Source: a virus. Taken from it: DNA of 21,296 bases. The notes under the pieces were generated by a model. That model had not been told where the DNA came from and did no database searches. It worked only from the letters and a program-made list of their open reading frames with translations. A program made the position numbers and the translations under genes. The stretch spans positions 1 through 21,296 of the IMG/VR virus record IMGVR_UViG_3300037961_006116; one strand, 5' to 3'. Positions 9,001 through 21,295 of the stretch are shown piece after piece. Every line of letters starts with the position of its first letter. Position 1 is the stretch's first letter.

Positions 9001-9091
9001 AAGGTCATTTACACACAATACAAATGGTATTGCTGGTATTGAAACATCTGCACACGTCTCCAGACTACTACAGTTGAGAGTATCCTACTAA
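2..9091 (+). CDS. Giant virion structural (tail/baseplate) protein with YHYH-type domain, 5'-truncated by window edge
   Basis: The frame is open from base 2 to a TAA at 9089-9091, giving 3,029 visible residues and no start; the TTG at 134 lies in mid-protein. The sequence is rich in Gly, Ser, Thr, Asn and Val, with no signal peptide or membrane segment seen. Modules in order: Gly-x-Gly-Tyr beta repeats (about 848-1078, 1880-2251, 4802-5113, 7377-7763), six copies of an NHxFxxG module between 461 and 6634, a YHYH-type domain (about 2380-2796), and an FLNDVLQKP-type module (7073-7279, 7862-8140). The C-terminus (YSWG followed by GIETSAHVSR) resembles, from memory, large structural proteins upstream of gene 8 in marine T4-like phages, some annotated VrlC. 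Position before gp8 is where T4 has gene 7, so a baseplate role is inferred. Structural assignment is firm; exact role is not. Confidence 0.85.
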   Translation, partial: VQHLGEKVDPTDPRFNRWFYNNVTYTNVKSTPSATTIITEVDHYLNVGDRVDILLKDSRNVEESNREVTAVANRTQFQIGAGSLTSDKKYIIRKKLDFVNTTLNNEGVLSNIQNSFLDNDGNTYVAFSGYPGYDNVTTTNRSKEFTSSAIDQGTDIINIPNHNFINGEKLYYEKIVGSSTGGIPEGNYFVNVIDNNRIRLSLSLVSLDNKIYFDISGVVANEQHKLTPAVLHGKSLVIQNNFKRIYKEPKLATEHNDITGPIGVALNGVEFYSPIGEDSIFYGQLDEVNILNKGVGYNIVNPPQIGVADTSGTNAKLIGHFVGKIEDIILTNAGFDFAETPTVTISGGNGTQATAEARMRGFTYSESFNDFSVNLVTNRITISGGHKFSHGEEVTYVAAGTPIGIGSTNVGFSTNRLTSGATYFISKFSDTEFSLAPSKEVALAGVAGNQIDFTAQGNQEHTLRSRKIRKVIDTINIVDSTDDFSSRKVVIDSQVWPPIEQKDIYSNFVGVNTENNYIYARNHSFKNGDNLRYSVDGTAIGGLSTTSNYKVKVLDNDRFMLSEAGTATTISSVNYDRNIYVDITSVGVGTHTFKYPEITVSINGLVSVGDTSVIPSYYNATANPIVSGKLDNVFIQNGGVGYGVTNIINYQRKPEVNVLTGKNADIKVIISGGKISSVYIADSGVEYTTPPTVNVVGSGRGAKLTATIVNGSITAINIIDPGTGYEQDTTTVEVIPTGNNAQLDVEVHEWKLNNVERFKKELQLDIQDRSQRTNRELVQLKSPLSINGNKLVSFYPGTRLRQILNDNLNNSLQEKTTNLAHSPIIGWAYDGNPIYGPYGNGNAIIANGAGGIIKMVSSYEKDAVIVPGLRPPGDVGYYVQDFVYKANGTLDEYNGRYLTNTDFPNGTYAYFATIDSNGNLEYPYITKSHYNQTDNFNYNILIEQSDENVNNGLYKRNVTHLGLNDPSREYPFLSDPLKSNTRIDVDHVNADRITSIDVENSGSGYKVGEQINLNDSSVDAEVEEILGKEIESIVTTTNEFKNTIFSIQDGKITGITTIPHTILDTDVVEISGISSASYKNIEGFRPVGVSTINTSVQVAIGATTVTGITTDIKLGESTLTGKFKSGDIIQIGNEQMLIANVDLVNNKYKVTRLFSNTAGSAHTAGKLVTRLPKEFTFNVNGKLENKNINFAYKKNFAASAIGIGSAYTSSVVGVAGSTNITVSIPPRAIYIPGHQFKTGDPVSLVSVGGTITASATAALTNEFDLSTVNLFVLKVASDFIGLATSKAGVASSSVFFTNNTAGKDHTLEVIKTNITGIVKKTSAQVTLIEPHSLKVNDEVKLDVTPSKTQNFVFKFNPVLKKLVVDPQSFANSDITTSTDEITIANHGFKTGDIVVYTNSVGVATPLQSNKEYYVIKISEDAFKLAETSYSANVFPYQNVDITEQGHGTHVVSKLSPKLEIFNGGKVSIAVSDSSLSGYDINLYQDNEFSSRYESTLIERTGTIGDSSITTRIVLDVKESLPKNLYYRIEGEGSNYTNTYPVTVGDYSNICVVDSKFNQNYKLTSVGSTTFDFTLVGSAETTSYTSAGFSSAFYYTSSLNDRGGIHSVDIVNPGYSIKKIPVVTSIGTTTGKNALLNVNGPEIGEIEDVTVVDTGIEFLEDSTLAPKADAPVILKLRNTFTLGSVGITTSGENYTTAPTVIAIGNSTILTRTEIEGSSVSSVEVIVNDTNLNEDLKLIAINNTNGVRVTGATSVNQLNTISLRAPVNGFEVFPFAVNDKIFVENIGITDSADGYNSSDYGYRFFTVTGINTIGGTESVTYSIAGIGSTGGTYNNAQNAAFGRVIKSTDLASFTPIFKEITFSESEKVTVGTGITYGFVTKDGWDPESKTLKLTGVVGDFGKNSIINGIVGNNKATVEEKYEFDFDLKIGSTSSDYGIWKDDIGKLNFDSQRIHDNDYYQRFSYSIRGEIPLQNWEEAVNSLDHTAGYKNFSDFQIITYPPAKVSFASSDTSEINLNVELSSSASVHTRMYYDLASEDTDTSNFSKIIKFDSKVITDYNESRTNKVLMIDDISSQFTGVGNSSGQLIGISTFNIFNNSNTLLYHTVEPGAGIETNNGASMGVITINDHNFNTGERLVYDPTNRGEDVGQHISIVQTSSTGSGLAATDRLPESVYAIKLTDDTFRVAVGKSEAEAGLGVTFTNTVGIGSTHSFSTETDLASSRSIITIDNIIQSPLARKDVSVGLTTAVGIGSTQITVNDVSNIAGKTIIRIENELLKVQLVGVGATNVLNVQRGQMGTVATAHTVGAATTIVSGDYRINKGKIYFSEPPYGPAGIGSLTTRSSFTGRIYYKLNYDNNLIMDDISEEFDGTKDQFDLKSNGQQVTGISTSFGAVLVDNIFQKPFYGDVGSILESDYRIVGTGETIDFTGTRKEDLPKGGTINEFTVGVGSNYQVPRQAIGIAVVNGSGVITSVSIGGTSAGGAGYLFPPVVSIADTLGNGVGAAVTATVGSAGTISGFTINNGGTGYSQANPPLVTIDPPSPYKNLPLIGGTGSGAKMDVVVGTGGSIISFNMSNRGIGYSVGDVLELSGLPFNPVGVGSTNMLVTVKNKYQDKFAGWTFGQMLELDDFSNQFNGFRKSFLITRTIAETEYYSIVAQDGSGIVLANNLMIFLNDVLQKPNDDYEFNGGTRITFKEAPKPGSKFKIYLYTGSDQDFVAIDVDETVKPGDRLRLQTQDNVPSQDKRIIYELIASDTVETETYAGVGIVTDSSFNRPVEWTKQTSDIIIDGQIISKERNYLELQYFPATNIIASVATTSTKLYVNDSWAFKRVDDLGQTLNDVRIVGFGTTAVVEEIKKVTYAGDFGTITSIGASTVGIGTTTSPRLDFILKPDSTIYDPTPNDKQVAKPGISTGDFFVIRNTTLGAGVTSIDKHISNVVSTGTSFVDNIYMAHEVVSIGTSEVRVSTNVDSLAGINTLTQPTDVVNYGTYSWGVINTGSRSVATARSFTHNTNGIAGIETSAHVSRLLQLRVSY
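461..6634 (+). repeat. Six diverged copies of an NHxFxxG beta module within the giant gene
   Basis: Six protein-level repeats of about 75-95 residues share the order: short Ile/Val strand, NH(or GH)-x-F-x-x-G-[DE]-x-[VL]-x-Y, then Y-x-V and D-x-F-x-L, then a closing T-H or H-T-L. Copies lie at about 461-679 (NHNFINGEKLYY), 1121-1396 (GHKFSHGEEVTY), 1538-1786 (NHSFKNGDNLRY), 3668-3928 (GHQFKTGDPVSL), 4130-4354 (NHGFKTGDIVVY) and 6353-6634 (DHNFNTGERLVY). Weaker relatives occur near 3140-3290 (PHTILDTDVVEI) and 3965-4030 (PHSLKVNDEVKL). The copies are too diverged to be a DNA repeat; they are duplicated domains of unknown function. Confidence 0.75.
2380..2796 (+). other. YHYH-type domain inside the giant structural protein
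   Basis: Two signature stretches are readable. The first is HSPIIGWAYDGNPIYGPYG at 2462-2518. The second, about 70 residues later, contains LDEYNGRY, a PNGTYAYF core near 2710-2735, and EYPYIT followed by HY ending at 2796. This pairing (DG-PIYGPYG, then LDE-NGR, then PxGTYAYF, then PYI) is what I know of the YHYH family, found in secreted bacterial proteins and in large tail proteins of marine T4-like phages. The literal tetrad YHYH that names the family is not present here. Its function is not established to my knowledge; domain limits are approximate. Confidence 0.75.
7073..8140 (+). repeat. Two full copies of a DD-[IF]-S-x-x-F / VLQKP module near the giant protein's C-terminus
   Basis: Copy one (about 7073-7279) begins MDDISEEFDG, continues to VDNIFQKP and ends with a DYRIVGTGETIDF strand. 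Copy two (about 7862-8140) begins LDDFSNQFNG, continues to MIFLNDVLQKP and ends with DYEFNGGTRITFKEAPKPGS. A third, truncated start (IDDISSQFTG) occurs near 6200. The pattern of a partner strand, QKP, then D-Y-x-x-x-G-T-x-I-x-F is common in phage tail and fibre proteins as a beta-sandwich building block. That is family knowledge from memory; the duplication is directly visible. Confidence 0.65.
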
Positions 9092-9099
9092 ATTTAGTA
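9086..9099. repeat. Perfect 14-bp palindrome overlapping a stop codon and late promoter
   Basis: TACTAAATTTAGTA is its own reverse complement. It covers the last codons of the upstream giant gene (Tyr-stop) and its last two bases are the first two of the TATAAATA box. It is all but GC-free, so a stable RNA hairpin or intrinsic terminator is unlikely, and no T-run follows. It may be coincidental. Confidence 0.4.
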
Positions 9100-9105
9100 T
9101 AAATA
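9098..9105 (+). promoter_or_regulatory. T4-type late promoter (TATAAATA)
   Basis: This is an exact match to the T4 late promoter -10 consensus TATAAATA, with no -35 element needed in that class. It lies in the only gap between the giant gene and gp8, about 20 bases before the gp8 ATG. If initiation occurs a few bases downstream, as in T4, the leader would be only about 12-15 bases, carrying a weak GGA at 9117-9119 as the ribosome contact. It should drive gp8 and the DUF4815 gene and implies a gp55-like late sigma encoded elsewhere. Confidence 0.85.
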
Positions 9106-9124: not shown

Positions 9125-10687
9125 ATGCCTGCCATAATTACTGACCAATTTAGAATATTGAATGCAGAGACTTTTGCGAAAAGTCTGACGGGTATTGGTA
9201 CTACCTCTAATTACTATTATACATTTTTGGCACACCCAAATCCAACTAATGTAAGTATTGAAGAATATGGCGATCTTAATTGGTCAACAAATCCTCCAGA
9301 ACCAAAAGATTCTTTTGAACAAGAGGATAGATATCATGATTCTATGCTCTTTTTAAAAAGAGTAACATCGAGTGATGTTGCTAGAGTTGTACCCAGAATT
9401 AATTGGACTTCTGGTATAACGTATGACATGTATAGAAATGACTATGACATCAGTAATGCAGCGCCTCAGACTAGTTCTAAGACACTGTATGATTCTCGTT
9501 TCTATGTTGTAAACTCTGAGTTTAAAGTTTATATTTGCATAAACAATGGTTCTCAACCTGGTGGTGACTCTGGTGGTAGAAAGTCATTGTACGAACCAAA
9601 TTTTGTAGATACATCACCTCAAGCAGCAGGTGCTGATGGATATCTATGGAAGTATTTGTATACCATTGCTCCTACTGATATTGTTAAATTCACGACTGAA
9701 AAATATATGCCTCTTCCTAGAGAGTGGGGTGATACAGCAACTGCCGCTGTTAAAAATGCTGCTATTCGTGGAAAAATAGAGACAGTAGTAATCAAAAACA
9801 GAGGTTCAGGTTACACTATTGCTGGTGATGGTGCAAGTGGCACTGTGGCAAATGTTCCTATTCTCGGAGATGGAACTGGAGGAGAAGTTTCTATTACTAC
9901 TACAGCAGGAGAAGTTACTTCTATTGTAGTCACATCTGGTGGATCTGGTTATACACGAGGAGTAGTTAATTTTGGTACTACTTCCACTGGATCGAAAGAT
10001 GTAACAGCCGGATCAGGTGCCACATTTGAGGTTGTGATTCCACCAAAAGGTGGACATGGAAATGATATTTACCGTGAGTTAGGATCATATAGAATTATGG
10101 TCTATTCTAAGTATGACTCTGATCCTGATTATGTTATCGGAAACACATTTTCAAGAGTTGGTCTTATAAAAAATCCAACAAGTTATGGCAGTTCTACTGC
10201 TATTTTGGATGTCCCTACTGCAACCAATCTTAATGCACTAAAACTAAAACCAGTGGGTGCCGGTCAAACTTCATCCACAACATATCCAATAAATGCCGAA
10301 ATTAGACAAACAGTTGGTGTTGGACAAACAGCAGTTGGATATGTTGCTTCGTGGAATGGTAATACTGGTGTATTGAAATATTATCAACCTGTTGGATTAT
10401 CTACTCTGTCAAATAATGGATTTAGACAGTTTGATTTTGTCGGAGCAGCAAACACAGTCACTTGCACAGGAATTATTGGAAACGCATTGATTCCTGATAT
10501 CAATTTCAATACTTCCAGCGTAACTGTTGGCGGAAAAATTATTGAATTGGGTCAAACATTTAACTCTGGAAAGGCAAATGCAGACGTTGAAATGCACTCC
10601 GGCGATGTCATCTATATAGATAACAGAGCACCAATCACTAGGTCCTCATCACAAAAAGAAGAAGTAAAAATCGTAGTAGAGTTCTAA
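9125..10687 (+). CDS. 8: Baseplate wedge protein gp8 (T4-like)
   Basis: A 520-residue protein. In T4, gp8 is a structural subunit of the baseplate wedge that joins gp7 and gp10. The N-terminus (MPAIITDQFRILNAETF) matches the start I recall for marine T4-like gp8. The GADGYLWKYLYTIAP region corresponds to GDGYVWEYLFEIPP of T4 gp8, and the C-terminal HSGDVIYIDNRAPI followed by EEVKIVVEF corresponds to HSGEMIYMENRPPI followed by EEINILFTF. T4 gp8 is 334 residues; much of the extra length is a Gly-x-Gly-Tyr module at residues 212-312. The ATG is chosen by family match and its place just behind a late promoter. The TAA ends 4 bases before the next start, implying coupled translation. No catalytic residues are expected. 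Confidence 0.92.
   Translation: MPAIITDQFRILNAETFAKSLTGIGTTSNYYYTFLAHPNPTNVSIEEYGDLNWSTNPPEPKDSFEQEDRYHDSMLFLKRVTSSDVARVVPRINWTSGITYDMYRNDYDISNAAPQTSSKTLYDSRFYVVNSEFKVYICINNGSQPGGDSGGRKSLYEPNFVDTSPQAAGADGYLWKYLYTIAPTDIVKFTTEKYMPLPREWGDTATAAVKNAAIRGKIETVVIKNRGSGYTIAGDGASGTVANVPILGDGTGGEVSITTTAGEVTSIVVTSGGSGYTRGVVNFGTTSTGSKDVTAGSGATFEVVIPPKGGHGNDIYRELGSYRIMVYSKYDSDPDYVIGNTFSRVGLIKNPTSYGSSTAILDVPTATNLNALKLKPVGAGQTSSTTYPINAEIRQTVGVGQTAVGYVASWNGNTGVLKYYQPVGLSTLSNNGFRQFDFVGAANTVTCTGIIGNALIPDINFNTSSVTVGGKIIELGQTFNSGKANADVEMHSGDVIYIDNRAPITRSSSQKEEVKIVVEF
9758..10060 (+). other. Gly-x-Gly-Tyr beta module inserted in gp8
   Basis: Residues 212-312 of gp8 contain two repeats of the pattern I/V-x-x-V-V-I-x-[NS]-x-G-S-G-Y (VVIKNRGSGYT, then IVVTSGGSGYT), each followed by a Gly-rich stretch. 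The same pattern occurs several times in the upstream giant and once in the DUF4815 protein. From memory T4 gp8 has no such segment: flanking sequence resumes gp8-like character at GSYRIMVYSKY and GNTFSRVGLIKNP. It is therefore read as an insertion, probably a surface-exposed domain. Confidence 0.65.
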
Positions 10688-10691
10688 GAAC

Positions 10692-13600
10692 ATGACCCAG
10701 AACACCAATCTAAATGTCTCGCCATATTTTGATGATTTTGATGAGGACAAGAATTATAATAAGGTGCTGTTTAAGCCTGGATTTCCTGTCCAGTCTCGGG
10801 AATTAACGACTCTGCAATCTATTCTTCAGGGTCAAATAGAGAAGTTTGGACAACACTTCTTCAAAGAAGGATCCATGGTGGTTCCTGGAGGTGTTTTTTA
10901 TGATAACAGATATTATGCAGTCAGAATTGATCCTACATTCTTAGAAGTTCCAGTTAGTGCTTACATTTCATATCTCAAAGAAAATAATATTGAGATTCAA
11001 GGTGAGACTTCTGGAGTTAAAGCAACTGTTGTTAATTGTGTTACCAGTATTGAGTCTGAAGATAATTTCGATACTCTGTATATCAAATACAGTTCTTCTG
11101 GAACAGATGGTGCCACTAAAGAATTTCAAGACGGTGAAAATTTAATTACATTATCTGATATTCTTTACTCCAATACTTCCATTCCCGCAAATAATCAATT
11201 TGCTAGAACGATTGTATCCGAGTCAACCAAAATCGGATCTTCATCTTCAATTAACGAAGGTGTATTTTTTATAAGAGGATACTTTGTAAAAGTTCCAGCA
11301 TCCACAGTAATCTTAGATCAATATACAAATACACCTAGTTACAAGGTTGGTCTTCAGATCAAAGAGGAAGTTGTAACTGCTTCCCCAGAATATAAAGACC
11401 TATATGATAATGCAAAAGGATTTTCTAATGAAGCAGCACCTGGTGCTGATAGATTTAAAATTACAGCAACTTTAACTAAAAAATCACTTACAGACAACAA
11501 TGATGCCGACTTTGCAGAGTTGTTGCGTGTAGATAATGGTGTTGTAGAAAAGTTAGTAAACAAAACTGACTATAATATTTTTAAAGATGAATTAGCAAGA
11601 AGAACATATGATGAATCTGGAGACTACTACATTAAACCATTTAATGTTGATATTAGAGAGTCTTTAAACAATAGAATTGGAAACAATGGAGTTTATCTTC
11701 CATCTCAAAACACTCGTAATGGAAACACTCCATCTGATGACATTTTTACCCTTCAAATATCTTCTGGCAAGGCATATGTAAGAGGATATGAAATTGATAA
11801 AATTTCTACATCTTCAATTGATGTTGTAAAACCAAGAACAACAAGAGAAAAAGAAAATATTAGTGTTCCAGTTAGAACCGGAAATAATCTTCAATTGGAG
11901 AATGTTTACGGTTCACCAACTATTGGTGTAACCACTACTTATAGTGTTCAATTTTTTGATCAAAGACTAAATCAAGCAAATCTAACTCAGGGCACTGTTA
12001 TTGGTGACGCTAGAGTATATGATTTTTCAAAGAAATCTATTTCTGGAGTTGGTACAGAAAGATTTGATATGAAATTGTTTGATATTCAAACATTTACAAA
12101 TCTTACAGTTGGTCTTGGTCTTACAGCAAGTGCCTCTTCACATGTTAAAGGACAATTTAGTGGAGCAAGCGGACATCTTGTAGATGCAATTGCAAATGGA
12201 ACAACTATTAAATTAAGAGACGTACAAGGTGAATTCCAAATCAATGAACCTATTGAAGTTAACGGATTGAATGTTGGTAGAAATATTACAACAATTAGAG
12301 ATCATGACATTACTGATGCAAAATCAGTTGGTAGATCTGTTGGAGTATCGACATTTGCCGCAAACATTGCTCTTACCAAAGAAAAATTTGTATTCCAAAC
12401 TGGCGCAGAATTTGATATTAATTCAAACGGTAATACTACAGGAGCAAGTGTAAGTGATTTCCGTACATTGCTTAAAGTTGGTGATATTGTTGCATATGGA
12501 GTATCATCACTCTCCACGCCAGTATTTAATAGAGTAACAAATTTTGCAAATAATGGTGCTGTAGTAGTTCTTGCTGGTATTCATACTGAAGCAGGTGTTA
12601 ATGTTGGTGCAGTAACAGCATCATCTCCAACTGATTTGAGAGTTGTTGTTCCTGTATTAGAAAAAGCAAATGATGCAGGAAAAGTTATTCCTCTACCTAA
12701 TGAAAACGTTTCTTTTATTAATCTACTTGACAGTAATTATATTGTAAGAAAGCAACTTTCAAAGAATGTAACTTCAACTACTTTCTCATTCTCAATTAAT
12801 GATCTTGGTGACAATGATTTATTCTTAGAACCATATACTGAAAATAATTATATTCTTACCTGGGAAGATGGTCATAAAGAAATTATTTTAGATTCACAAG
12901 TTACAATAAGTGCAGATCTTAAGTCAATTCAATTTGCAGCATTATCTAAAACTGGAAATGCAACTTTAACCGTTACATGTAAGAGAAGTAAGTTAACATC
13001 CAAAGTAAAAACTATCTCAAGGTGTACAGATCTCATTGTAAACAGATCTAAGTACGGTGGTTCTGGTATTGGATCTACAACTTTTAATGATGGTCTTACC
13101 GAAAATGGAGTTTATGGTACAAGAGTACAGGATGAAGAAATTTCACTCAACGTTCCAGATGTAACAAGAATTCTTGGAATTTTTGAGTCAAATGATACAG
13201 CTAATCCAGATATTCCATCTATTACTGTTTCAATTCAAAGTGATACATTTACTAATAATGTGACTATAGGTGAGCAATTCATTGGTGCTTCTTCTGGTGC
13301 TGTTGCTCGAGTTGTTAGTGTCGTCAGTGGCACTCAGATTGATTTTGTTTATGAGAATGATAAATTATTTGAATTAGAAGAACAAATTTCTCTACAAACT
13401 TCTGGAATTACTGGAAATATATCAACACTTCTTATTGGAGATAGAAATATAACTTCCAACTATATCTTTGACAACGGTCAGAGAGAAGAGTTCTGTGATT
13501 TTGGAAGAATTAGAAGAAAGTCTGGTGTTTCCGAACCAACGAGAAGACTAAGAATTATTTACGACAATTTCTCAACTGATGAAAGCACTGGAACTGTAGA

Positions 13601-16600
13601 ATCAATTAACAGTTACAATTCCCTTGATTATAGCAATGATATTCCAGTGAATATTGGAAGAAGAGCATCAGATCATATTGATCTGAGACCAAGAGTTAAT
13701 CCATATAACACTAGTTCTACTGATTCACCATTTTCTTTTGCATCTAGATCATTTACTAATTCAAGGTCTGAAACTGCTGTTACTGACAAGACTATTATTT
13801 TAGATTATGCTTATTATCTTGGAAGAATTGATAGATTGTACTTGACAAAAGAAGGAGTATTTGAAATCAAACAGGGTGAACCATCTGAGTATCCTAAGGC
13901 ACCTGTATCAAATAATGAAGGTTTTGAAGTTGGCATCCTTTCCTCAGAACCATATGTGTATGATGCAGCATTTGATGTATCCATCAAGATGGTTCCACAT
14001 AAGAGATTTACCATGAAAGATATTGGTAGTCTTGAGAACAGAATTAAAAATCTTGAGGAGTATACAACTCTTTCTTTACTTGAAACTGATACTAAGAATC
14101 TTTCCATCAAGGATCCTAACACAGGACTGGACAAGTTTAAGTCTGGATTCTTTGTAGACAACTTCAGAAGTCACGATAGTCATAATTTAACTGGTGAGTC
14201 TTTCTTTGATATTGACTTGGTACGTGGCGAGTGTCGTCCTCGTTCCACAGAAAGAAATGTTCCCCTGCAGTTTGAGACTAAATCAACAGCAGCAGATCCA
14301 GTAAATGCTGACTATCGTTGGGCAGAAGACTTTGCTGATGCAAATGCTACCAGAAATGGTACTGGTCTAACTCTGAACTTTACTGAGGTGATGTTTGTTG
14401 ATCAACCTCTTGCAACTAGAACAGAAAACCTTAATCCATTCCATATTGCACTTTATGCCGGTGCTCTTGAACTGACTCCTGCTACAGATTTCTGGATTGA
14501 AGAAGTCATTCTTCCAACTCCTGATATTGTAAAAGTAGATTCTGTATTTAATGGAATGGCAGATCTTCTTGGTGTTGAAGATCGTGAAAATGGTGGTATG
14601 TCAGCAAGTTACTGGAACTCTGTTGAGCAAACTTGGACTGGTAGACAAACACTCAGAGATGAAGTTCTGGAGGAAAGAGAAACTGGAAGAAGGAGAATTG
14701 GTAGAAGAACACAAAGAGGAAGAGGTATCCGTCAAGTCACAACTGACCGCGTAACTTTCGAACAAGATAGACTGAGAACAACTCTTGAAACCGGAACAGA
14801 AAGAACATTTGGATTTGAATTGACCGCTGGTGAAGATAATATCAGTCTCGGTGATAGAGTTATCGGTGTTGATATTATACACAACTGTCGTACCCGAAAT
14901 CTGCAAGTTCATGGTAAGAGATTAAAACCAAATACCAGATACTATGTCTTTATGGAAGACGTAGATATGAATGAATATGCGACTCCTAAGCAACTCCCAA
15001 TCTCTATGACTAGAGGTTCATTCAAGACTGGAGATATTGTTGACAGTCTCGGTGGATTTGTTTCTGGAAGTGCAAGCATCAGATTCCGTCTTGCACAACA
15101 TAATCATGAAGTTGGTCCCTTTAATGCTCCAACTAAAACTGTATCTTCTTTGAGTTCTTCTTACTCAGGAACATCTAATACTTTAAATCTCGATCTCCCT
15201 GGTCTTGCTGGTCAAATTAGACCTGACCACCTTGGTTATGTCAAGAAAGGAATGGTTCTTGTTAATCTTTCTGGAACTGCTGAAGCAAAAGTAACTGGTA
15301 CAGATCTCATCACAGATGAGAAAGGTGAATTACAGTTCTCATTACACATTCCAGATCCTAAGATTGCTGCTAATCCCAAATTTACCACTGGATCTAATAC
15401 AATCAGATTAACAACAGTTGCTAGTAATCCAAGTAATCTTGATCCTGGTGAAAGTTCTGCTGAAACTGAATATCAAGCAACTGGATATGCTGCTAATGTT
15501 CAGGAACAAACTTTATCAATTAAAACTGCACAAGTAGAAAGAAAGCAGATTGGTCAAGATCAACCTGCTAGAAGAATTACTCAAGACTTTAGAACTGAGA
15601 CAGTTCAGAGAACTGAAGAAACCTTCGGTCCTTGGTATGATCCCCTTGCACAGTCGTTCTTAGTTGATACTGATGAAACTTCTGATGGTGTATTCATTAC
15701 TGGTGGAGACTTATTCTTCAAGACTAAGGATAATACTATACCAGTAACAGTTCAAATTAGAACTATGAGAGATGGTACTCCAACAACAACTGTTGTGCCA
15801 TTTGGTCAAGTAAATATCGAACCACCTGATGTAAATCTTTCTGATGATGGTAGTGTTGCAACTAACTTTAAGTTTGATACTCCAGTCTATCTTCAGTCTG
15901 GATATGAATATGCGCTTGTTCTGATTGCTCCCACAGAGAAGTATCTAACCTTTATCACCAGAATGGGTGAGGAAGATCTGTTACTCAAGGCAATTTACAA
16001 CAAGCAACCATATCTTGGTTCACTGTTCAAGTCACAGAACCAGTCAACCTGGACTCCAAGTCAGTTGGAAGACCTTAAGTTCAAACTCAATAAAGCAAAG
16101 TTTGTTACTAACACTCCAACTTCTGTTACTTTCTACAACACTGAGTTACCAGTTGGGCAGATTAGAAAAAACAACCCAGTTACTGTATTCTCTAAGAGAT
16201 TATCTATTGGTATTGCTAATACAACTGATGCATATGTAGTTGGTAATGAAATTAGACAAGGAGATAATAATGGTAAAATCTTTGCGAGTGGTGGTCCATT
16301 AAAGACTGATACTCTTGCTCTTGTTCAACCAACTGCTGGTGTTGGTTTAACAAATGGAACATTTACTGGAATCGGATTCACAACTCTTACCGGATTTGGT
16401 AGTTCTTGCGTAGCAACAGTTAACGTTTCTGGCGGTGCAGTTAATACTATCACAGTTACCAATGGTGGTTCTGGATATCAAGTTGGTGATCTTTTGTTGA
16501 TGAACCAACTTGGTGCAACTGGAAGCGGAGTTAGAGTTAATGTTGGTGTATCAACAATGACCAATTTATTAATTGTTGACGATGTTGTTGATAATATTGT

Positions 16601-17930
16601 CACTGGAACTGGATATACTTATTACAACAGTGCTGGTGTTGGTGCAAATAAACCTGCTCCTCAATTTGTTAACGCTGACCCAATTAGAGATGGCGTAACT
16701 ATGCTGTTTGATCATCATAATCATGGTATGCACTCAAGTACAAACAAACTTAGAGTATACAATGTTGAAAGTGATGTTAAACCTACAACCCTGAGTGCAT
16801 CTATTGATGATGATACTACAGTTATTAAGGTGGCAGATGGATCAGCATTTGCTACATTTGAAGGAGCAACAGTTGGTGCTGCTAATACGGGTTATCTGAA
16901 GATTGACAAAGAAATCATTTCTTATGAAACAATTTCTGGAAATGATATTACAATTAAAAATAGAGTAGTTGACTCGAGTCTTAAGTCCAATCATGCTCAA
17001 AATGCAAATGTATTTAAGTATGAAGTTAGTGGAGTTTCCCTTCTCAAAGTTAATAAAGAACACAATATTGACCCAAGAGAAAAAACATTTAATAGTTATC
17101 ATGTAAAACTTTCAGATACTACTAAATCATTCAATTCAACTAGACCAGTTGGTGGAAAGAATGTTGAAGTTTCTCAAAATATACCATTTGAATATATTAA
17201 CCCTAACTTCAATATGATTAATCCTTCAGGGACATCAATTACTGCAAATATTAAGACAACTTCTGGAACAAGTTTAAGTGGTTCTGAGGCATCATTTAAT
17301 GATCTCGGAATGGAAAGTGTTACATTCAATAAATTGAATCGTCTTGATAGTCCAAGAATTGTTGCATCAAAGGTTAATGAATCTGGTCTTCTTGGTGGAG
17401 CAAAATCATTTGCACTTGAAATGATAATGTCAACTACTAATGAAGATGTTTCTCCTATGGTTGATCTTGATACTACTAATATAATTGTGGTTAGCAACCT
17501 TGTTGACAGTAAAGTCAGCAATTTTGAAACTGATAGTAGAGTTAAAGTTCCTGGATTTGATCCAAACTCTGGAATATATGAAACCAAAAAAATTGATCTT
17601 GAATTTGCATCTAATTCACTACTTGTACAATTTGATGGTCATAGAGAAGAGCAGTCTAATTTCCGTGTCTTCTATAAACTCTTTAGAAAAGATGGAAATG
17701 ATTCTCAACAGACATATATTCCATTCAATACCAACGGACTTCCAGATAAAACTGTAAATCCAAATGAGACTGAAAATGGATTTAGTGAGTATAAATTTAC
17801 TGCTGAAAATACACCACAGTTCAATGGTTTTATGATTAAAGTCGTGATGACCGCAACAAATCAGGCACAAGCACCTAGGTTTAAAAACTTTAGAGCAATT
17901 GCACTCAGAGCATTCGAAGCAGATGACTGA
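10692..17930 (+). CDS. DUF4815-type giant tail/baseplate structural protein
   Basis: A 2,412-residue protein. The N-terminus (PYFDDFDEDKNYNKVLFKPG, then QSRELTTLQSIL and GxVVPGG) is the signature I associate with DUF4815 proteins of phage tails. Further landmarks: an Arg-rich stretch at residues 1318-1348; LKPNTRYYVFMED near 14925-14960; WYDPLAQSFLVD starting at residue 1648; a Gly-x-Gly-Tyr module near 16395-16625; HHNHGMH at residues 2008-2014; an attachment-like module (16785-17010); and a C-terminal FRVFYKLFR domain from about residue 2324. It starts 4 bases after gp8 and overlaps the next gene by 8 bases. In T4 this position holds genes 9-10, so an outer baseplate or fibre-attachment role is inferred. 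No enzyme motif is seen. Confidence 0.85.
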   Translation: MTQNTNLNVSPYFDDFDEDKNYNKVLFKPGFPVQSRELTTLQSILQGQIEKFGQHFFKEGSMVVPGGVFYDNRYYAVRIDPTFLEVPVSAYISYLKENNIEIQGETSGVKATVVNCVTSIESEDNFDTLYIKYSSSGTDGATKEFQDGENLITLSDILYSNTSIPANNQFARTIVSESTKIGSSSSINEGVFFIRGYFVKVPASTVILDQYTNTPSYKVGLQIKEEVVTASPEYKDLYDNAKGFSNEAAPGADRFKITATLTKKSLTDNNDADFAELLRVDNGVVEKLVNKTDYNIFKDELARRTYDESGDYYIKPFNVDIRESLNNRIGNNGVYLPSQNTRNGNTPSDDIFTLQISSGKAYVRGYEIDKISTSSIDVVKPRTTREKENISVPVRTGNNLQLENVYGSPTIGVTTTYSVQFFDQRLNQANLTQGTVIGDARVYDFSKKSISGVGTERFDMKLFDIQTFTNLTVGLGLTASASSHVKGQFSGASGHLVDAIANGTTIKLRDVQGEFQINEPIEVNGLNVGRNITTIRDHDITDAKSVGRSVGVSTFAANIALTKEKFVFQTGAEFDINSNGNTTGASVSDFRTLLKVGDIVAYGVSSLSTPVFNRVTNFANNGAVVVLAGIHTEAGVNVGAVTASSPTDLRVVVPVLEKANDAGKVIPLPNENVSFINLLDSNYIVRKQLSKNVTSTTFSFSINDLGDNDLFLEPYTENNYILTWEDGHKEIILDSQVTISADLKSIQFAALSKTGNATLTVTCKRSKLTSKVKTISRCTDLIVNRSKYGGSGIGSTTFNDGLTENGVYGTRVQDEEISLNVPDVTRILGIFESNDTANPDIPSITVSIQSDTFTNNVTIGEQFIGASSGAVARVVSVVSGTQIDFVYENDKLFELEEQISLQTSGITGNISTLLIGDRNITSNYIFDNGQREEFCDFGRIRRKSGVSEPTRRLRIIYDNFSTDESTGTVESINSYNSLDYSNDIPVNIGRRASDHIDLRPRVNPYNTSSTDSPFSFASRSFTNSRSETAVTDKTIILDYAYYLGRIDRLYLTKEGVFEIKQGEPSEYPKAPVSNNEGFEVGILSSEPYVYDAAFDVSIKMVPHKRFTMKDIGSLENRIKNLEEYTTLSLLETDTKNLSIKDPNTGLDKFKSGFFVDNFRSHDSHNLTGESFFDIDLVRGECRPRSTERNVPLQFETKSTAADPVNADYRWAEDFADANATRNGTGLTLNFTEVMFVDQPLATRTENLNPFHIALYAGALELTPATDFWIEEVILPTPDIVKVDSVFNGMADLLGVEDRENGGMSASYWNSVEQTWTGRQTLRDEVLEERETGRRRIGRRTQRGRGIRQVTTDRVTFEQDRLRTTLETGTERTFGFELTAGEDNISLGDRVIGVDIIHNCRTRNLQVHGKRLKPNTRYYVFMEDVDMNEYATPKQLPISMTRGSFKTGDIVDSLGGFVSGSASIRFRLAQHNHEVGPFNAPTKTVSSLSSSYSGTSNTLNLDLPGLAGQIRPDHLGYVKKGMVLVNLSGTAEAKVTGTDLITDEKGELQFSLHIPDPKIAANPKFTTGSNTIRLTTVASNPSNLDPGESSAETEYQATGYAANVQEQTLSIKTAQVERKQIGQDQPARRITQDFRTETVQRTEETFGPWYDPLAQSFLVDTDETSDGVFITGGDLFFKTKDNTIPVTVQIRTMRDGTPTTTVVPFGQVNIEPPDVNLSDDGSVATNFKFDTPVYLQSGYEYALVLIAPTEKYLTFITRMGEEDLLLKAIYNKQPYLGSLFKSQNQSTWTPSQLEDLKFKLNKAKFVTNTPTSVTFYNTELPVGQIRKNNPVTVFSKRLSIGIANTTDAYVVGNEIRQGDNNGKIFASGGPLKTDTLALVQPTAGVGLTNGTFTGIGFTTLTGFGSSCVATVNVSGGAVNTITVTNGGSGYQVGDLLLMNQLGATGSGVRVNVGVSTMTNLLIVDDVVDNIVTGTGYTYYNSAGVGANKPAPQFVNADPIRDGVTMLFDHHNHGMHSSTNKLRVYNVESDVKPTTLSASIDDDTTVIKVADGSAFATFEGATVGAANTGYLKIDKEIISYETISGNDITIKNRVVDSSLKSNHAQNANVFKYEVSGVSLLKVNKEHNIDPREKTFNSYHVKLSDTTKSFNSTRPVGGKNVEVSQNIPFEYINPNFNMINPSGTSITANIKTTSGTSLSGSEASFNDLGMESVTFNKLNRLDSPRIVASKVNESGLLGGAKSFALEMIMSTTNEDVSPMVDLDTTNIIVVSNLVDSKVSNFETDSRVKVPGFDPNSGIYETKKIDLEFASNSLLVQFDGHREEQSNFRVFYKLFRKDGNDSQQTYIPFNTNGLPDKTVNPNETENGFSEYKFTAENTPQFNGFMIKVVMTATNQAQAPRFKNFRAIALRAFEADD

Positions 17931-18147
17931 TTATCTAAAGGTTGAATCGGACACATCTCTTTATAGAGATGTAAAAACTAACGCCATTGTCAATCAGAAT
18001 AAAAGTGAATTTGACAAATTTATGAAACTTTCTGAAAAAAGATACAAAGAAAAGATGGAGATGAAAAAGTTGAAAGATGATGTGGATGATATGAAATCAG
18101 ATATAGAGGAGATTAAAAATCTTCTTATATCCATTGTGAAAAAATGA
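17923..18147 (+). CDS. Small coiled-coil protein (74 aa), unknown function
   Basis: The ATG at 17923 lies inside the last codons of the DUF4815 gene (8-base overlap) and gives MTDYLKVESDTSLYRD. An in-frame ATG at 17899 exists, but would lie deeper in the upstream gene; the MTDYLK start resembles small proteins at this place in marine T4-like phages as I recall them. Residues about 33-74 are very Lys/Glu/Asp/Met-rich with spaced hydrophobics (MKKLKDDVDDMKSDIEEIKN), a likely amphipathic or coiled-coil helix. Position suggests co-translation with the tail protein, perhaps as an assembly helper or minor structural part; this is a guess. A late promoter lies immediately downstream. Confidence 0.75.
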   Translation: MTDYLKVESDTSLYRDVKTNAIVNQNKSEFDKFMKLSEKRYKEKMEMKKLKDDVDDMKSDIEEIKNLLISIVKK

Positions 18148-18149
18148 TT

Positions 18150-18157
18150 TATAAATA
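18150..18157 (+). promoter_or_regulatory. T4-type late promoter (TATAAATA)
   Basis: An exact TATAAATA in the 42-base gap between the coiled-coil gene (ends 18147) and the 113-residue gene (starts 18190), 32 bases before that ATG. No other feature occupies the gap, and no clear Shine-Dalgarno precedes 18190 (the bases are GATTGTAATA). It should drive the fibre-like cassette, the 59-residue gene and gp13 as one late unit. Confidence 0.85.
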
Positions 18158-18189: not shown

Positions 18190-18531
18190 ATGGCAGCATA
18201 TGTAAGCAACATTGTAATAGAAAGTGGCGCTAACTTTGATCAGTCATTCAATCTTGAAAATAGTGCTAACGCACCATTAAATTTAACAGGTTATAGCGGT
18301 GCTTCTATGTTAAAGAAACATCCTGCTTCTTTAACTACCGCTGCGTCTTTCAGTGTCTCGTTTCCCAACAGAACACAAGGACAACTGAGAATATCTCTAG
18401 GATCAACAGTGACTAGTAATTTAAAACCAGGTAGATATGTTTATGACATTCTACTAAGTGACGCTTCAGCAATGAAAACTAGAGTAGTTGAAGGTAGTGC
18501 AATCGTCACTGCCGGAGTAACCACGAGTTAA
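18190..18531 (+). CDS. Small virion-associated beta protein (113 aa), fibre/baseplate cassette
   Basis: The protein reads as a compact beta domain: an N-terminal strand (SNIVIESGANFDQSFNL), then LNLTGYSGASMLKKHP, a QGQLRISLGS strand and PGRYVYDILLS. This order (extreme N-terminal 'binding' strand, L-T-G-[YF]-x-x-x-x-x-x-[KR], then G-x-Y-x-Y-D) is a common small phage protein type that I recall from marine myoviruses, often next to fibre genes; I know no experimental role. It is first behind the late promoter and ends 5 bases before the next ATG. The start has no obvious Shine-Dalgarno. Structural annotation is likely, function unknown. Confidence 0.7.
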   Translation: MAAYVSNIVIESGANFDQSFNLENSANAPLNLTGYSGASMLKKHPASLTTAASFSVSFPNRTQGQLRISLGSTVTSNLKPGRYVYDILLSDASAMKTRVVEGSAIVTAGVTTS

Positions 18532-18536
18532 AACAT

Positions 18537-18764
18537 ATGTCAGACATTAAAGTCAGAGTTGGTTCACAAAATGCGATTAAGGTTCTATCCTCGTTTGCCG
18601 GGGGTGGAGGAACCTTAGGTGGTTTAAGTGATGTTGACATTTCAGGTGGACTACAGAACGGAATGGTTCTAGTCTACAATTCTTCCGCTGCGAAGTGGGA
18701 AGCAACTTTAGAACTAACGCCTGGAGCAACCCAGAACTTGGACATCAATGGAGGAAATTTCTAA
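18537..18764 (+). CDS. Small fibre-like protein (75 aa)
   Basis: The sequence has a Gly-rich linker (SSFAGGGGTLGG) followed by LSDVDISGGLQNGMVLVYNS and AAKWEAT. The L-S-D-V-D, D/N-G-x-V-L-V-Y-N, K-W-x pattern is a widespread phage tail-fibre unit known from many annotated fibres. At 75 residues this is far shorter than typical fibres, so it is either a stand-alone fragment of a once longer fibre or a small tip or connector protein. It ends NGGNF, with the codons for these residues doubling as the ribosome site for the next gene, which starts 3 bases after the stop. I am fairly sure it is a real gene because of tight packing and the matching C-terminal pattern. Confidence 0.75.
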   Translation: MSDIKVRVGSQNAIKVLSSFAGGGGTLGGLSDVDISGGLQNGMVLVYNSSAAKWEATLELTPGATQNLDINGGNF

Positions 18765-18770
18765 GCCATG
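18748..18770 (+). promoter_or_regulatory. Ribosome binding site inside the 75-aa gene's end
   Basis: GGAGGAA at 18750-18756 is a strong Shine-Dalgarno, followed by ATTTCTAAG and the ATG at 18768. It lies in the final codons (Asn-Gly-Gly-Asn-Phe-stop) of the preceding gene and decides the start of the 510-residue protein. A nearly identical arrangement precedes the gene at 20304. Confidence 0.8.
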
Positions 18771-20300
18771 GCAAGTATTATAAGAGTAAAAAGATCTACG
18801 GGCACTGGCGCTCCAGGTAGTCTTAATTTTGGTGAACTTGGTCTTACCGTTGGAGTAGGCACTCACGGTAATAAAGGTGGCAGACTGTTTGCTGGAGATA
18901 ACGCACAGAACGCTCAAGTAGTCGGTGGTAGATATTACACCGATTTATTAAGTATTGCACCTGGTCTTGTTGCCGGTCAACAAAACCCAACTACAGCAGC
19001 GAATGGTTTTGTTGCTATTGTTGACCAAAACCGAAAGGTTGATCAGTGGAACGTAGATAATCTAAGATTAGATACAAATACATTATCGTCTACAGATACT
19101 GATGGTGATATTATCTTTGATCCTAATGGATCTGGTGAGATTGTCATCCCTGACGACACATTCCTTACTTTTGGTACGAGTAAGGATGCTAAGATTGAAT
19201 ATGATGAAGATGGTACAAATTCTGTCGTAGTTACTGGTGCTGCCTGGCAGTGGAATTCTCCTCAGACATTTGGTAATGTTGGAATTTCTTCTAATGTAAT
19301 TTCAACCAAATCTGGTGGTGGTAATCAGTTATTCATTGACCCATATCCTGATGGTCTGAGTAACGAAGGTACTGTTGTTATTAAAGGTGACCTTCAAGTT
19401 GATGGAACTACCACTACTGTTAACTCGAATAATGTTACTGTTAATGATGCTATTTTCGCTATTGGCGATGTAACAAGCATCAGAACAGTCATGGCACCAG
19501 TTACATCTGGTGTATCTACTGTTACTTTAGACTCTGTTGTTGGTATCAATACTGGTGACCAACTGGCAGCAACAGGAATTGATGCTTCTGGTATTGGTAC
19601 AGTAACAGCATATAACACATCAACAAAAGTTGTAACATATACCGGAACTGCTACCGGAGTTACAACCACTACACAAGTAACTGTAACTCACGCATTTGAT
19701 ACCAATACCGATCGTGGTGTTTCATTCCAGTATAACACTAGCAGTGGAACTGGTAATAATAAAGTTGGTTTCTTTGGTTACAATGATAGTGCTGGTGAGG
19801 GAAGTTCTGCTCCAGCAAGAGCATTTACATATATTCCTGACGCCACTGTATCTGGAAGTGTTGTAACTGGAACCAGAGGTAATCTTGATATCAAGGGTAT
19901 CTACTATCAGACAGGAGACTATAATACACACGGTGTTGTATTCTTTGATGTCAATGGTTTACAGACATCTACTAATAATCCAACAGATGCAGTAAATACA
20001 AGAACTTCTACACAGATCTTGACTGCTGTTACTGAGATTACAATTGCTTTACCATCTGGACAAACAATTGCCCAAGATGCATTAGTAACTCAACAGAATA
20101 ACAGCACTGCTTTTGGTGTTTGTAAAACCTCAATCAGTGGAGGGACAACTCTTACACTTATTGGTGTTCAAGGAACATTTGACACCACAAATGATTTGGT
20201 AGTAGATGGTGCTAGTATTTCCGTTTCACCAAACACGGTAACTACCGTGTACACTAACAAACCAATCTGGACAAATACACTCGATGGAGGAACTTTCTAA
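18768..20300 (+). CDS. Tail-fibre-like structural protein with Mtd-type N-terminus (510 aa)
   Basis: Residues 1-60 (IIRVKRSTGTGAPGSLNFGE, then GGRLFAGDN and GGRYYTDLL) match the N-terminal pattern of phage tropism-determinant-type proteins and many marine phage fibres. Next come DGDIIFDPNG and KDAKIEYDEDG with GAAWQWN (about residues 110-165), then GDLQVDGTTTTVNSNNVTV (from about 206). From about residue 314 lies DRGVSFQYN with KVGFFGYND, followed by FTYIPDA, VVTGTRGNLDIKGIYYQTGD and a Gly/Thr-rich end closing LDGGTF. These units recur in marine T4-like fibre or baseplate-tip proteins. A host-contact or fibre role is inferred from domains and context, not shown. No reverse transcriptase or template repeat for diversity generation is present nearby. 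Confidence 0.82.
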   Translation: MASIIRVKRSTGTGAPGSLNFGELGLTVGVGTHGNKGGRLFAGDNAQNAQVVGGRYYTDLLSIAPGLVAGQQNPTTAANGFVAIVDQNRKVDQWNVDNLRLDTNTLSSTDTDGDIIFDPNGSGEIVIPDDTFLTFGTSKDAKIEYDEDGTNSVVVTGAAWQWNSPQTFGNVGISSNVISTKSGGGNQLFIDPYPDGLSNEGTVVIKGDLQVDGTTTTVNSNNVTVNDAIFAIGDVTSIRTVMAPVTSGVSTVTLDSVVGINTGDQLAATGIDASGIGTVTAYNTSTKVVTYTGTATGVTTTTQVTVTHAFDTNTDRGVSFQYNTSSGTGNNKVGFFGYNDSAGEGSSAPARAFTYIPDATVSGSVVTGTRGNLDIKGIYYQTGDYNTHGVVFFDVNGLQTSTNNPTDAVNTRTSTQILTAVTEITIALPSGQTIAQDALVTQQNNSTAFGVCKTSISGGTTLTLIGVQGTFDTTNDLVVDGASISVSPNTVTTVYTNKPIWTNTLDGGTF

Positions 20301-20306
20301 ACCATG
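20284..20306 (+). promoter_or_regulatory. Ribosome binding site inside the fibre-like gene's end
   Basis: GGAGGAA at 20286-20292 is followed by CTTTCTAAA and the ATG at 20304. It occupies the last codons (Asp-Gly-Gly-Thr-Phe-stop) of the 510-residue gene and sets the start of the 59-residue gene. It matches the site at 18748-18770 in 21 of 23 positions. Confidence 0.8.
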
Positions 20307-20483
20307 AACCAAGATGTTGACGTGAATATTTTGATTAAAAATTATCATTCTAAAATATCATCTTTAATGAATCAAAATATTCTTCTAGAATCTAAACTTG
20401 AGTCTTTAACAAAAGACTATATTGAATTGCAAGAAAAAATTAAAATACCAGATAAATATCAGGAAGCAGGTATCGAGGAATGA
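20304..20483 (+). CDS. Small coiled-coil protein (59 aa), unknown function
   Basis: The ATG follows the fibre-like gene's stop by 3 bases behind a strong GGAGGAA, and the frame runs 59 codons to TGA at 20481-20483. The protein begins MNQDVDVNILIKNYHSK and has a helix-like centre (LMNQNILLESKLESLTKDYI, then ELQEKIK) with heptad-like hydrophobic spacing, so a short coiled coil is likely. Its TGA overlaps the gp13 ATG in an ATGA, implying translational coupling. Without this gene a 179-base gap would separate the fibre-like gene from gp13. Its function is unknown; small coiled-coil proteins in this place could help assembly or oligomerise, but nothing in the sequence proves it. Confidence 0.8.
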   Translation: MNQDVDVNILIKNYHSKISSLMNQNILLESKLESLTKDYIELQEKIKIPDKYQEAGIEE

Positions 20484-21295
20484 GTAAACCATCGACCAGA
20501 CAGGAATTGATTGATTATTCTCTTAGGAGATTGGGATATCCTGTATTGGAAATTAATGTGGATGATGATCAAATTGACGATTTAGTTGATGATGCAATTC
20601 AAAAATTCCAAGACTTTCATTATGATGGTATTCAGAGAGTATTTTTAAAGCATAAAGTTACAGAAGCAGAAAAAGATATAATAAAGGCAGGCATTACTAC
20701 TACGACAGCAACTTCCAGTGTTGGTGTTGCATCTGTGGGTTGGGATGAGGGTCAAAACTTTCTTCAACTTCCAGAGCATGTCATTGGAATTAATAAAGTT
20801 TTTAAGATGGACAATAGCACCATTTCAAGTGGTCTGTTTAACATCAAGTATCAATTGTTCCTAAATGATCTTTATTATTATGGAGCACTTGACCTATTGA
20901 ACTTTACAATGACTAAGACATATCTTGAGGATCTTAGTAGAATAATTACACCAGATGTACAATTGAGATTTAACCGGAAGCAAGGTAGATTGTATATTGA
21001 TATTGACTGGAACTCGTTTACAGATGATAATTATATTGTACTTGACTGTTATAGATTAGTTGATCCTTCTGATGCGGCACTAGTCTACAATGACTCTTGG
21101 TTAAAGAAATATACCACTGCATTAATTAAGAAACAGTGGGGACAGAATTTGATAAAATTCCAAGGTGTATCTCTTCCTGGTGGAGTTCAGTTAAACGGAA
21201 GACAATTATATGATGATGCAATAGCAGAGATAGAACAATATGAAAAAGAACTCAGAGATACATATGAGGAACCACCTCTCGATCTGATAGGTTGA
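20480..21295 (+). CDS. 13: Neck protein gp13 (head completion, T4-like)
   Basis: A 271-residue protein, against 309 in T4. In T4, gp13 forms part of the neck with gp14 and closes the filled head so a tail can attach. The N-terminus (MSKPSTRQELIDYSLRRLGY, then VLEINVDDDQIDDLVDDAIQ and KFQDFHYDG) is the conserved start of marine T4-like gp13 as I recall it. Further landmarks are LQLPEHVIGINKVFKM, FLNDLYYYGALDL and the C-terminal DSWLKKYTTALIKKQWGQN with PGGVQLNG. The start overlaps the preceding TGA (ATGA). The GAGG just before it is too close to be a good ribosome site, so re-initiation after the 59-residue gene is likely. The TGA at 21293-21295 is one base from the window end; gene 14 would be expected next. 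Confidence 0.92.
   Translation: MSKPSTRQELIDYSLRRLGYPVLEINVDDDQIDDLVDDAIQKFQDFHYDGIQRVFLKHKVTEAEKDIIKAGITTTTATSSVGVASVGWDEGQNFLQLPEHVIGINKVFKMDNSTISSGLFNIKYQLFLNDLYYYGALDLLNFTMTKTYLEDLSRIITPDVQLRFNRKQGRLYIDIDWNSFTDDNYIVLDCYRLVDPSDAALVYNDSWLKKYTTALIKKQWGQNLIKFQGVSLPGGVQLNGRQLYDDAIAEIEQYEKELRDTYEEPPLDLIG

Follow-up and report, generated by a model that had tools for sequence, protein, structure and literature searches.

In the branched receptor-binding proteins of phages K1-5, K1E and SP6 and of the Klebsiella phages KP32 and KP34, short conserved peptides have been proposed as the joint (PMC6872550). The neck fibre of cyanophage A-1(L) has been modelled as gp82, gp81 and gp80 joined head to tail and encoded in one operon, anchor first (PMC10966104), and translationally coupled adjacent genes, in which stop and start overlap or lie close together, are enriched for subunits of heteromeric complexes (PMC10666635). 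Here we analyzed a stretch of 21,296 nucleotides (the window), part of the 24,252-base IMG/VR virus record IMGVR_UViG_3300037961_006116, in which the genes of a 75-residue protein and of a 510-residue fibre protein end in nearly the same 23 bases. We consider that this repeat probably represents two instances of a conserved C-terminal tag, [DN]-[GC]-G-x-[FYW]-COOH, which is carried by fibre and anchor proteins, doubles as the Shine-Dalgarno (SD) sequence of the next gene and would dock the next fibre.

The likeness to the known anchor/fibre joints is partial. As in the K1-5 and Klebsiella type, an anchor would be combined with a separately encoded fibre or spike, a short joining peptide is proposed, and the fibre bodies are variable; there, however, the peptide is the N-terminus of the second protein, whereas here it is the C-terminus of the first (PMC6872550). 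Besides, the codons of the peptide in the present system can form the SD of the next gene, and the N-terminal module of the second protein is longer. The A-1(L) fibre, which is attached to the neck of a cyanobacterial myophage (PMC10966104), would resemble the present one in this position. Unlike in the usual coupled pairs (PMC10666635), a strong SD is written here in the codons of the conserved residues.

The 23-base repeat and the conserved C-terminal tag

Positions 18748-18770 and 20284-20306 of the plus strand are identical in 21 of 23 bases, as an earlier reading of the window made from its letters (the sequence-only reading) had noted, and they form the best 23-mer pair in the window (same-strand, nonoverlapping pairs: one at 21 identities, seven at 20, and 77 at 19). 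The flanks of the two 23-mers are at chance level, with 19/60 bases identical on the left and 17/60 on the right. Both copies encode x-[ND]-G-G-x-F-stop: the gene of the 75-residue protein (18537-18764, plus strand) ends in ...INGGNF (18744-18764 with the stop), and that of the 510-residue protein (18768-20300, plus strand) ends in ...LDGGTF (20280-20300 with the stop). Within the upstream coding region, the two Gly codons of each tag provide GGAGG (18750-18754 for the 510-residue fibre gene and 20286-20290 for a downstream 59-residue gene), and the next ATG, at 18768 and 20304, lies 13 bases after GGAGG and 3 bases past the stop in both copies. With both GGAGG and ATG located, the claim that one sequence encodes the C-terminus, the SD and the next start was borne out. 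This is the geometry of coupled pairs, with a close start and the SD inside the upstream gene; in many relatives, the stop and start codons overlap. The repeat is real as regards its match and its GG-x-F end, but a CCATG ending is shared by few relatives: it occurs in 4 of the 36 distinct 23-mers from short genes and in 1 of the 78 from long genes.

In 279 assembled sequences, comprising the window, named phages and IMG/VR loci, we identified relatives of the two proteins by whole-protein tblastn. This search was not wholly blind to the tag, which is part of the queries and is overlapped by two of the peptide patterns with which loci had been fetched. [DN][GC]Gx[FYW]-stop ends 422 of 438 homologous genes (16 exceptions), near-identical contigs included. 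The tag was present in all 101 genes found by the short query only (all with [DN]GGx[FYW]), in 183 of 197 found by the long query only, and in 138 of 140 found by both, and I, L or V precedes it in all but 2 of the 422. It is also kept where no start is close. In Prochlorococcus phage P-SSM2, gene 118 retains the tag with an ATG 22 bases after GGGGG and an anti-SD energy of +1.7 in the normal region; P-HM1 and MED4-213 retain it with GGT-GGT codons and a distant next start; S-8S55 and S-CAM9 end in IDCGTY/IDCGSY (codons TGC-GGT/TGT-GGC) with the next start 28 bases past the stop; and Synechococcus phage S-CBS2 keeps it with distant next starts. Because the tag is kept while its codons and the surrounding DNA change and the next start is too far away, these comparisons show that it is under selection as a protein feature. 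A junction conserved only in its GGAGG core would have refuted the sequence-only reading; we observed the opposite, in that the peptide persists even where the core is gone.

No description of the tag was found in the literature searched, whose coverage largely excluded subscription papers and preprints. A similar G-x-aromatic end adjoins the fibre cassette, for the neck protein gp14 ends in NPFGx[FY]-stop in 8 of 10 phages (loci L001, L003, L127, L128, L129, L131, L132, and L133) and is without this end in L135 and L138.

The same reading had offered duplication of a gene junction as one possible origin of the repeat, which could allow fibre genes to be gained or lost by recombination. We considered this origin in the form of two copies alike by descent, through duplication or conversion, that serve as a recombination site. 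Such an origin would account for the 21/23 identity of the top pair in the window, which is also the extreme of 72 same-locus pairs, with 16/18 coding bases identical (loci L181, L170, and L169 have 15). Only 1 of 2,725 cross-locus short/long pairs reaches 21/23 after removal of three misclassed fragments (13 of 4,579 before that removal, with intermediate-length genes counted as long), a level of identity that the common peptide alone would seldom produce. The window, however, was picked because it was conspicuous, so its identity is the upper tail of a distribution and not a test. When 18 coding bases were compared in 72 distinct short/long pairs (152 loci), mean identity was 12.19/18 within a genome versus 12.29/18 between genomes, and 1,635 of 2,000 permutations (1,625 of 2,000 in a repeat) reached the observed same-genome value. 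The ends are no more alike within than between genomes, and therefore a duplicated junction is not supported as a general explanation. Furthermore, the codons and the post-stop bases vary among junctions, and the likeness stops sharply at 23 bases. Since none of the other 72 same-locus pairs is as alike as that of the window, a private gene conversion in this lineage is a possible event.

Gene content near the tag does vary. In S-T4 and Sf-CH5, the fibre gene is absent and the short gene, its tag intact, lies directly before gp13; in S-SRM01-type phages, one intermediate-length gene takes the place of the short and fibre genes, that of S-SRM01 being a single 213-residue gene that starts like the short gene and ends like a fibre gene; and in P-TIM68, neither gene is annotated at the place of the cassette. 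The first two arrangements are what a recombining junction might leave behind, but the gene orders compared among the named phages place no crossover at the junction. The suggestion that the junction may bracket variable fibre genes is compatible with the varying presence of the fibre (S-T4, Sf-CH5, and P-TIM68) but unproven as to the site of exchange. We regard a duplicated or converted junction as a very unlikely source of the likeness.

Tag codons and the Shine-Dalgarno sequence

We further compared the codons of the tag with the distance to the next gene in 271 distinct junctions, from which untagged genes, genes too near a contig end and genes without a downstream open reading frame (ORF) had been dropped; the gap was counted as the bases from GGNGG to the next ATG. 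The first Gly codon was GGA or GGG in 122 of 123 junctions with a gap of 9-10, in 34 of 55 at 11-13, in 17 of 18 at 14-15, in 17 of 24 at 16-20, in 10 of 32 at 21-25, and in 2 of 19 at 26-80, nine of the last 19 having Cys. As background, GGA plus GGG accounts for 33% of the Gly codons elsewhere in the same genes and for 12% where Gly is the first of a Gly-Gly pair. In genes of fewer than 260 residues, GGA/GGG was found in 145 of 145 junctions with a gap of at most 13 and in 0 of 4 with a larger gap. In the long fibres outside the P-HM1-like group, it was found in 28 of 28 at gaps of at most 15, in 15 of 18 at 16-20, and in 2 of 10 beyond 25. Grouped into 14 sequence clusters, the junctions gave a mean of 0.97 in the 9 clusters with near junctions and 0.23 in the 6 with far ones, and the largest cluster, which has both, gave 0.75 and 0.38. 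The predicted duplex with the anti-SD had a median of -9.3 kcal/mol at junction starts (n = 14) versus -3.2 kcal/mol at other starts (n = 76), of which 5 of 76 reached -8 kcal/mol; the SD of the fibre gene in the window has -9.3.

Several of the counts speak against a simple dependence of codon on distance. Long fibres outside the P-HM1 clade keep GGA/GGG at gaps of 21-25 (9 of 9), and P-HM1-like long fibres have it in 0 of 23 junctions with gaps of at most 15, GGT being used in all 23. Over all genes of at least 260 residues, the contrast between near and far is weak (28/51 versus 29/71; P = 0.14), and what the codon rule reflects is for the most part how clades, and classes of genes, differ from one another. 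With the P-HM1-like long fibres excepted, these comparisons show that, near a next start, the tag's own codons form a strong SD. Selection on both the GG-x-F end and the translation signal, which the sequence-only reading had given as an alternative to duplication, is supported by a peptide that is kept without a near start and by GGA/GGG where a start is near; its scope is most clades and does not extend to the P-HM1-like long fibres.

A ribosome site alone, with GG-x-F as a by-product of a GGAGG placed where the upstream gene ends, would also produce GGA/GGG in 122 of 123 close junctions and an SD far stronger than that of other genes. This account is scarcely credible, and tags without an SD lead us to reject it: the peptide outlives the SD as IDCGTY/IDCGSY in S-CAM9 and S-8S55, with GGT-GGT in P-HM1 and with GGC-GGC in S-CBS2. 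The flanking I/L/V, D/N and F/Y residues are not needed by an SD, and of 84 tagged genes among the matches listed by a scan for GGT-GGT codons, 42 still precede the fibre module described below. One stretch of bases is under two separable selections, and natural controls come from tags that have a start close by and tags that have none.

The same double use was observed with a different peptide in P-SSP7 (L437, 6152-7901), where three successive fibre genes end in EVAA-stop. In the first two, E-V is written GAG-GTA, giving GGAGGT for an overlapping next gene; in the third, it is GAA-GTA, and the next annotated start is 27 bases away.

Tagged genes and the fibre module of the next gene

When viral contigs were scanned for GGAGG....TTYTAA..CATG, at least 120 stretches were obtained, 107 of them distinct and 83 with credible genes on both sides. 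Among the matches listed, a basic motif similar to MANTIRIKKR opens the downstream protein in 62 of 83 cases versus 24 of 1,041 other ORFs; an earlier, narrower regular expression for the start, widened thereafter, had given 37/107 versus 41/1,116. Among the upstream proteins of the 62 listed loci, 53 have 66 to 102 residues and one has 546. Other upstream proteins carry the T7 tail fibre N-terminal domain, as tested for locus L018 (PF03906; E value, 2.8e-17), where an unrelated anchor with a recognised attachment domain has this end too and is followed by a fibre of the same kind. We also made a profile of the short proteins stripped of their tag. Of 73 upstream proteins that were sorted as lying outside the main family among the matches listed, 19 were matched by it, although these 73 still include two evident family members and identical contigs; the region of about 40 residues before the tag is therefore partly shared as well. 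No named relatives of the short proteins of L017 and L023 were found. Separate T7-domain anchors ending in GGxF were not seen in P-SSP2 (where the gene end is cut off), S-SRP01, SS120-1, or P-SSP7, and the tag was missing from the genes examined in PSS2 and HTVC033P.

A second scan, with GATGGTGGT...TTYTAA, a pattern incapable of GGAGG, gave at least 120 stretches, 112 of them distinct and 84 with credible genes on both sides. By the strict regular expression, the basic motif starts 23 of 84 downstream proteins versus 39 of 1,017 other ORFs, among the matches listed. When 42 N-termini of downstream proteins from the first scan were made into a module profile (E value, ≤0.01), it detected the module in 42 of 84 downstream genes versus 58 of 1,856 other ORFs, again among the matches listed; many of the remainder, on reading, are cyanophage fibres followed by small coiled-coil-like genes. 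The reverse comparison used adjacent gene pairs from both scans that were not selected by pattern, the contigs being rich in fibre genes and the comparison group coming from the same contigs. Upstream of the module, 49 of 81 genes end in [GC]Gx[FYW] versus 19 of 1,356 upstream of other genes, and [DN].G.[FYW], an alternative expression chosen after the profile result of the second scan, gave 52/81 versus 16/1,356. Thus, as a statistical association, tagged genes directly precede genes that start with a fibre module, MAxxI[RK]xK[KR]...GELAxN, which in the window occupies 18768-18887 on the plus strand (MASIIRVKRSTG...GELG).

In some loci, a tagged fibre follows a tagged anchor and is itself followed by another module-bearing fibre (L017, L022, L025, and L035). 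S-CBS2 has such a chain in gp050 (...FSGGSF), gp051 (MSNAIRIKKR...IDGGTF) and gp052 (MANLIKLRRS...GELALNTYDG), with tags encoded by GGC-GGC and GGC-GGG, no GGAGG, and starts 40 and 66 bases past the stops.

We infer from this association that the tag probably docks each anchor or fibre to the next fibre. It would act as a flexible plug at the distal end of the trimer that an anchor or fibre forms and insert into the N-terminal module of the next fibre, the putative socket, so that fibres might be built as a chain from separately exchangeable genes; translational coupling of the fibre to the end of the anchor would favour matched amounts and local assembly. In the window, the 75-residue protein would be the anchor, and the 510-residue protein would be a fibre in a neck position adjoining gp13. 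The proposal draws on the association of tag and module, on the unrelated anchor with the same end, and on a fusion: in DSL-LC03 (L127, 7806-9137), a single 443-residue gene runs through the junction and so fuses the two proteins, short and fibre (...KWVVTNEIDGQVNPTIKIKRTTST). No further fusion of this type was found in five related loci, L429 to L433, four of which have a separate MASII.. fibre start, while no start was seen in L431. It draws also on AlphaFold2 monomer models, in which residues 72 to 75 of the 75-residue protein and residues 504 to 510 of the 510-residue protein have a predicted local distance difference test (pLDDT) below 50, as expected of a peptide that folds on its partner; in the latter model, ten-residue means are 91 to 94 over residues 421 to 490.

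A number of observations argue against docking. Both models are monomers only and poor, with a mean pLDDT of 60.8 (75 residues) and 68.0 (510 residues). In the second scan, as we read the matches listed, the gene after the tag is of the MSILDKIKK type in 10 of 84 cases and of the MSRPKP type in 7 of 84, neither of which looks fibre-like, and 32 of the 81 module-bearing genes have no [GC]Gx[FYW] gene upstream. The A-1(L) neck fibre genes, considered as members, have no GGxF ends, gp82, gp81 and gp80 being assigned by length and order. Moreover, a fibre follows a tagged long fibre in 0 of 172 cases by a regular expression that misses some fibre starts; downstream of these 172 genes are 72 small coiled-coil-like genes, 15 labelled gp13 and 83 others, but of the 12 long/gp13 loci shown, 8 start with MVNSEVDIN or MMNSEVDIN and are the small coiled-coil-like gene, and all 12 of the short/other loci shown are MASNILIKRSTG fibres missed by the expression.

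The retention of the tag by long fibres despite this 0/172 would suit a tag needed by its own protein, as a trimer cap, for folding or for recognition by a chaperone such as the neighbouring member of the "L-shaped fibre assembly" family, with no plug involved. A 113-residue gene of that family does lie upstream in the window, and some tagged proteins are not fibre-like. Yet such a role leaves aside that from the tag one can predict the N-terminal module of the gene that follows, that an unrelated anchor domain has the same tag and that the DSL-LC03 fusion joins both parts directly; besides, P-SSM2 has tags without the 113-residue gene at the place of the cassette. A purely intrinsic role is accordingly unlikely in our judgment.

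Separately, tags were observed outside fibres, in that ten frames of 299 to 421 residues ending in DGGDF or DGGKF (L447, L451, L486, L495, L509, L512, L524, L535, L555, and L558) precede a frame of about 355 to 360 residues starting with MSILDKIKK or similar.

The fibre cassette of the window and its wider meaning

By ORFs and by Pfam and PHROG matches, the window has a T4-like cyanophage gene order. A 2,985-residue ORF (134-9091) with a YHYH domain (PF14240; E value, 5.2e-21; residues 767 to 873) is followed by gp8 (9125-10687; PF09215), a 2,412-residue protein with DUF4815 (10692-17930), a small virion protein (17923-18147; phrog_473), and, on the plus strand, the 113-residue protein of the family "L-shaped tail fiber protein assembly" (18190-18531; phrog_3304; E value, 1.1e-33). 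The 75-residue protein, the proposed anchor or adaptor, matches phrog_13853 (E value, 2e-22) and has homologues in P-SSM2, P-HM1, S-T4 and others; Pfam and PHROG searches gave no recognised virion-attachment domain for it. The 510-residue protein matches phrog_15769 (E value, 1e-118). Between this fibre gene and that of the neck protein gp13 (head-tail adaptor Ad2; 20480-21295, plus strand; phrog_211; E value, 7.1e-46) lies the gene of a 59-residue protein (20304-20483, plus strand), coiled-coil-like as judged by eye and without a match in the PHROG search; similar small genes follow the fibre in relatives (MNAQIVISTLQKK... and MVNSEVDINVLV...). The order of gp8, large structural gene, small virion protein, fibre cassette and gp13 is that of T4-like Kyanoviridae, and in P-SSM2 the genes of the 75-residue protein, the fibre, the small protein and gp13 succeed one another as in the window; the neighbours of the cassette are those found in S-T4, P-HM1 and P-SSM2, although each of these phages has lost or changed some genes. 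A string search located TATAAATA, which we take to resemble the T4 late promoter consensus, on the plus strand only at 9098-9105, before gp8, and at 18150-18157, before the fibre cassette, with zero copies on the minus strand of the window.

In T4, the fibritin gene wac lies directly upstream of the neck gene gp13, and the present cassette likewise places a fibre gene directly before gp13. Fibritin was not matched in Pfam or PHROGs (E value, ≤0.01), in PDB sequences, or among the 50 PDB fold matches listed. Cyanomyoviruses have been reported to be without wac, g10 to g12, g34, g35, and g37 (PMC2984593). The best BFVD match of the 510-residue model is the P-HM1 homologue, and further matches, all with low template modelling scores (TM-scores), include the N-terminal domain of the Major tropism determinant and tail fibre proteins. 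Membership in Mtd_N (PF18454) was rejected, the 510-residue protein having no Pfam match at an E value of ≤0.01; the best Mtd_N score, that of the downstream fibre in L084, is below threshold (E value, 0.011; 16.1 bits versus a cutoff of 26.3). Sequence relatives of either family in PDB were not credible, the pentatricopeptide matches looking compositional, and the one fold match below an E value of 0.001, a phage tail tube with TM-scores of 0.13 and 0.24, was not used.

Beyond this cassette, we see an even chance that tailed phages share a standard plug and socket, in which a six-residue plug (approximately I-D-x-G-x-[FYW]) would fit a module of the form IRIKRS...GELAIN, unrelated anchors and fibres would be interchangeable, and Gly-Gly would be reused as the next ribosome site. 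L017, L022, L025, L035, and S-CBS2 offer serial examples, each with an anchor, a first fibre ending in DGGTF or NGGTF, and a second fibre. If this is true, a gene swap would keep the protein joint and its expression together. A tag and a module that predict each other provide a simple rule, based on sequence, by which chains of fibres can be located and ordered in marine viruses that lack annotation, and, if the docking is real, the tag would be a general connector that explains how fibres are swapped between phages.

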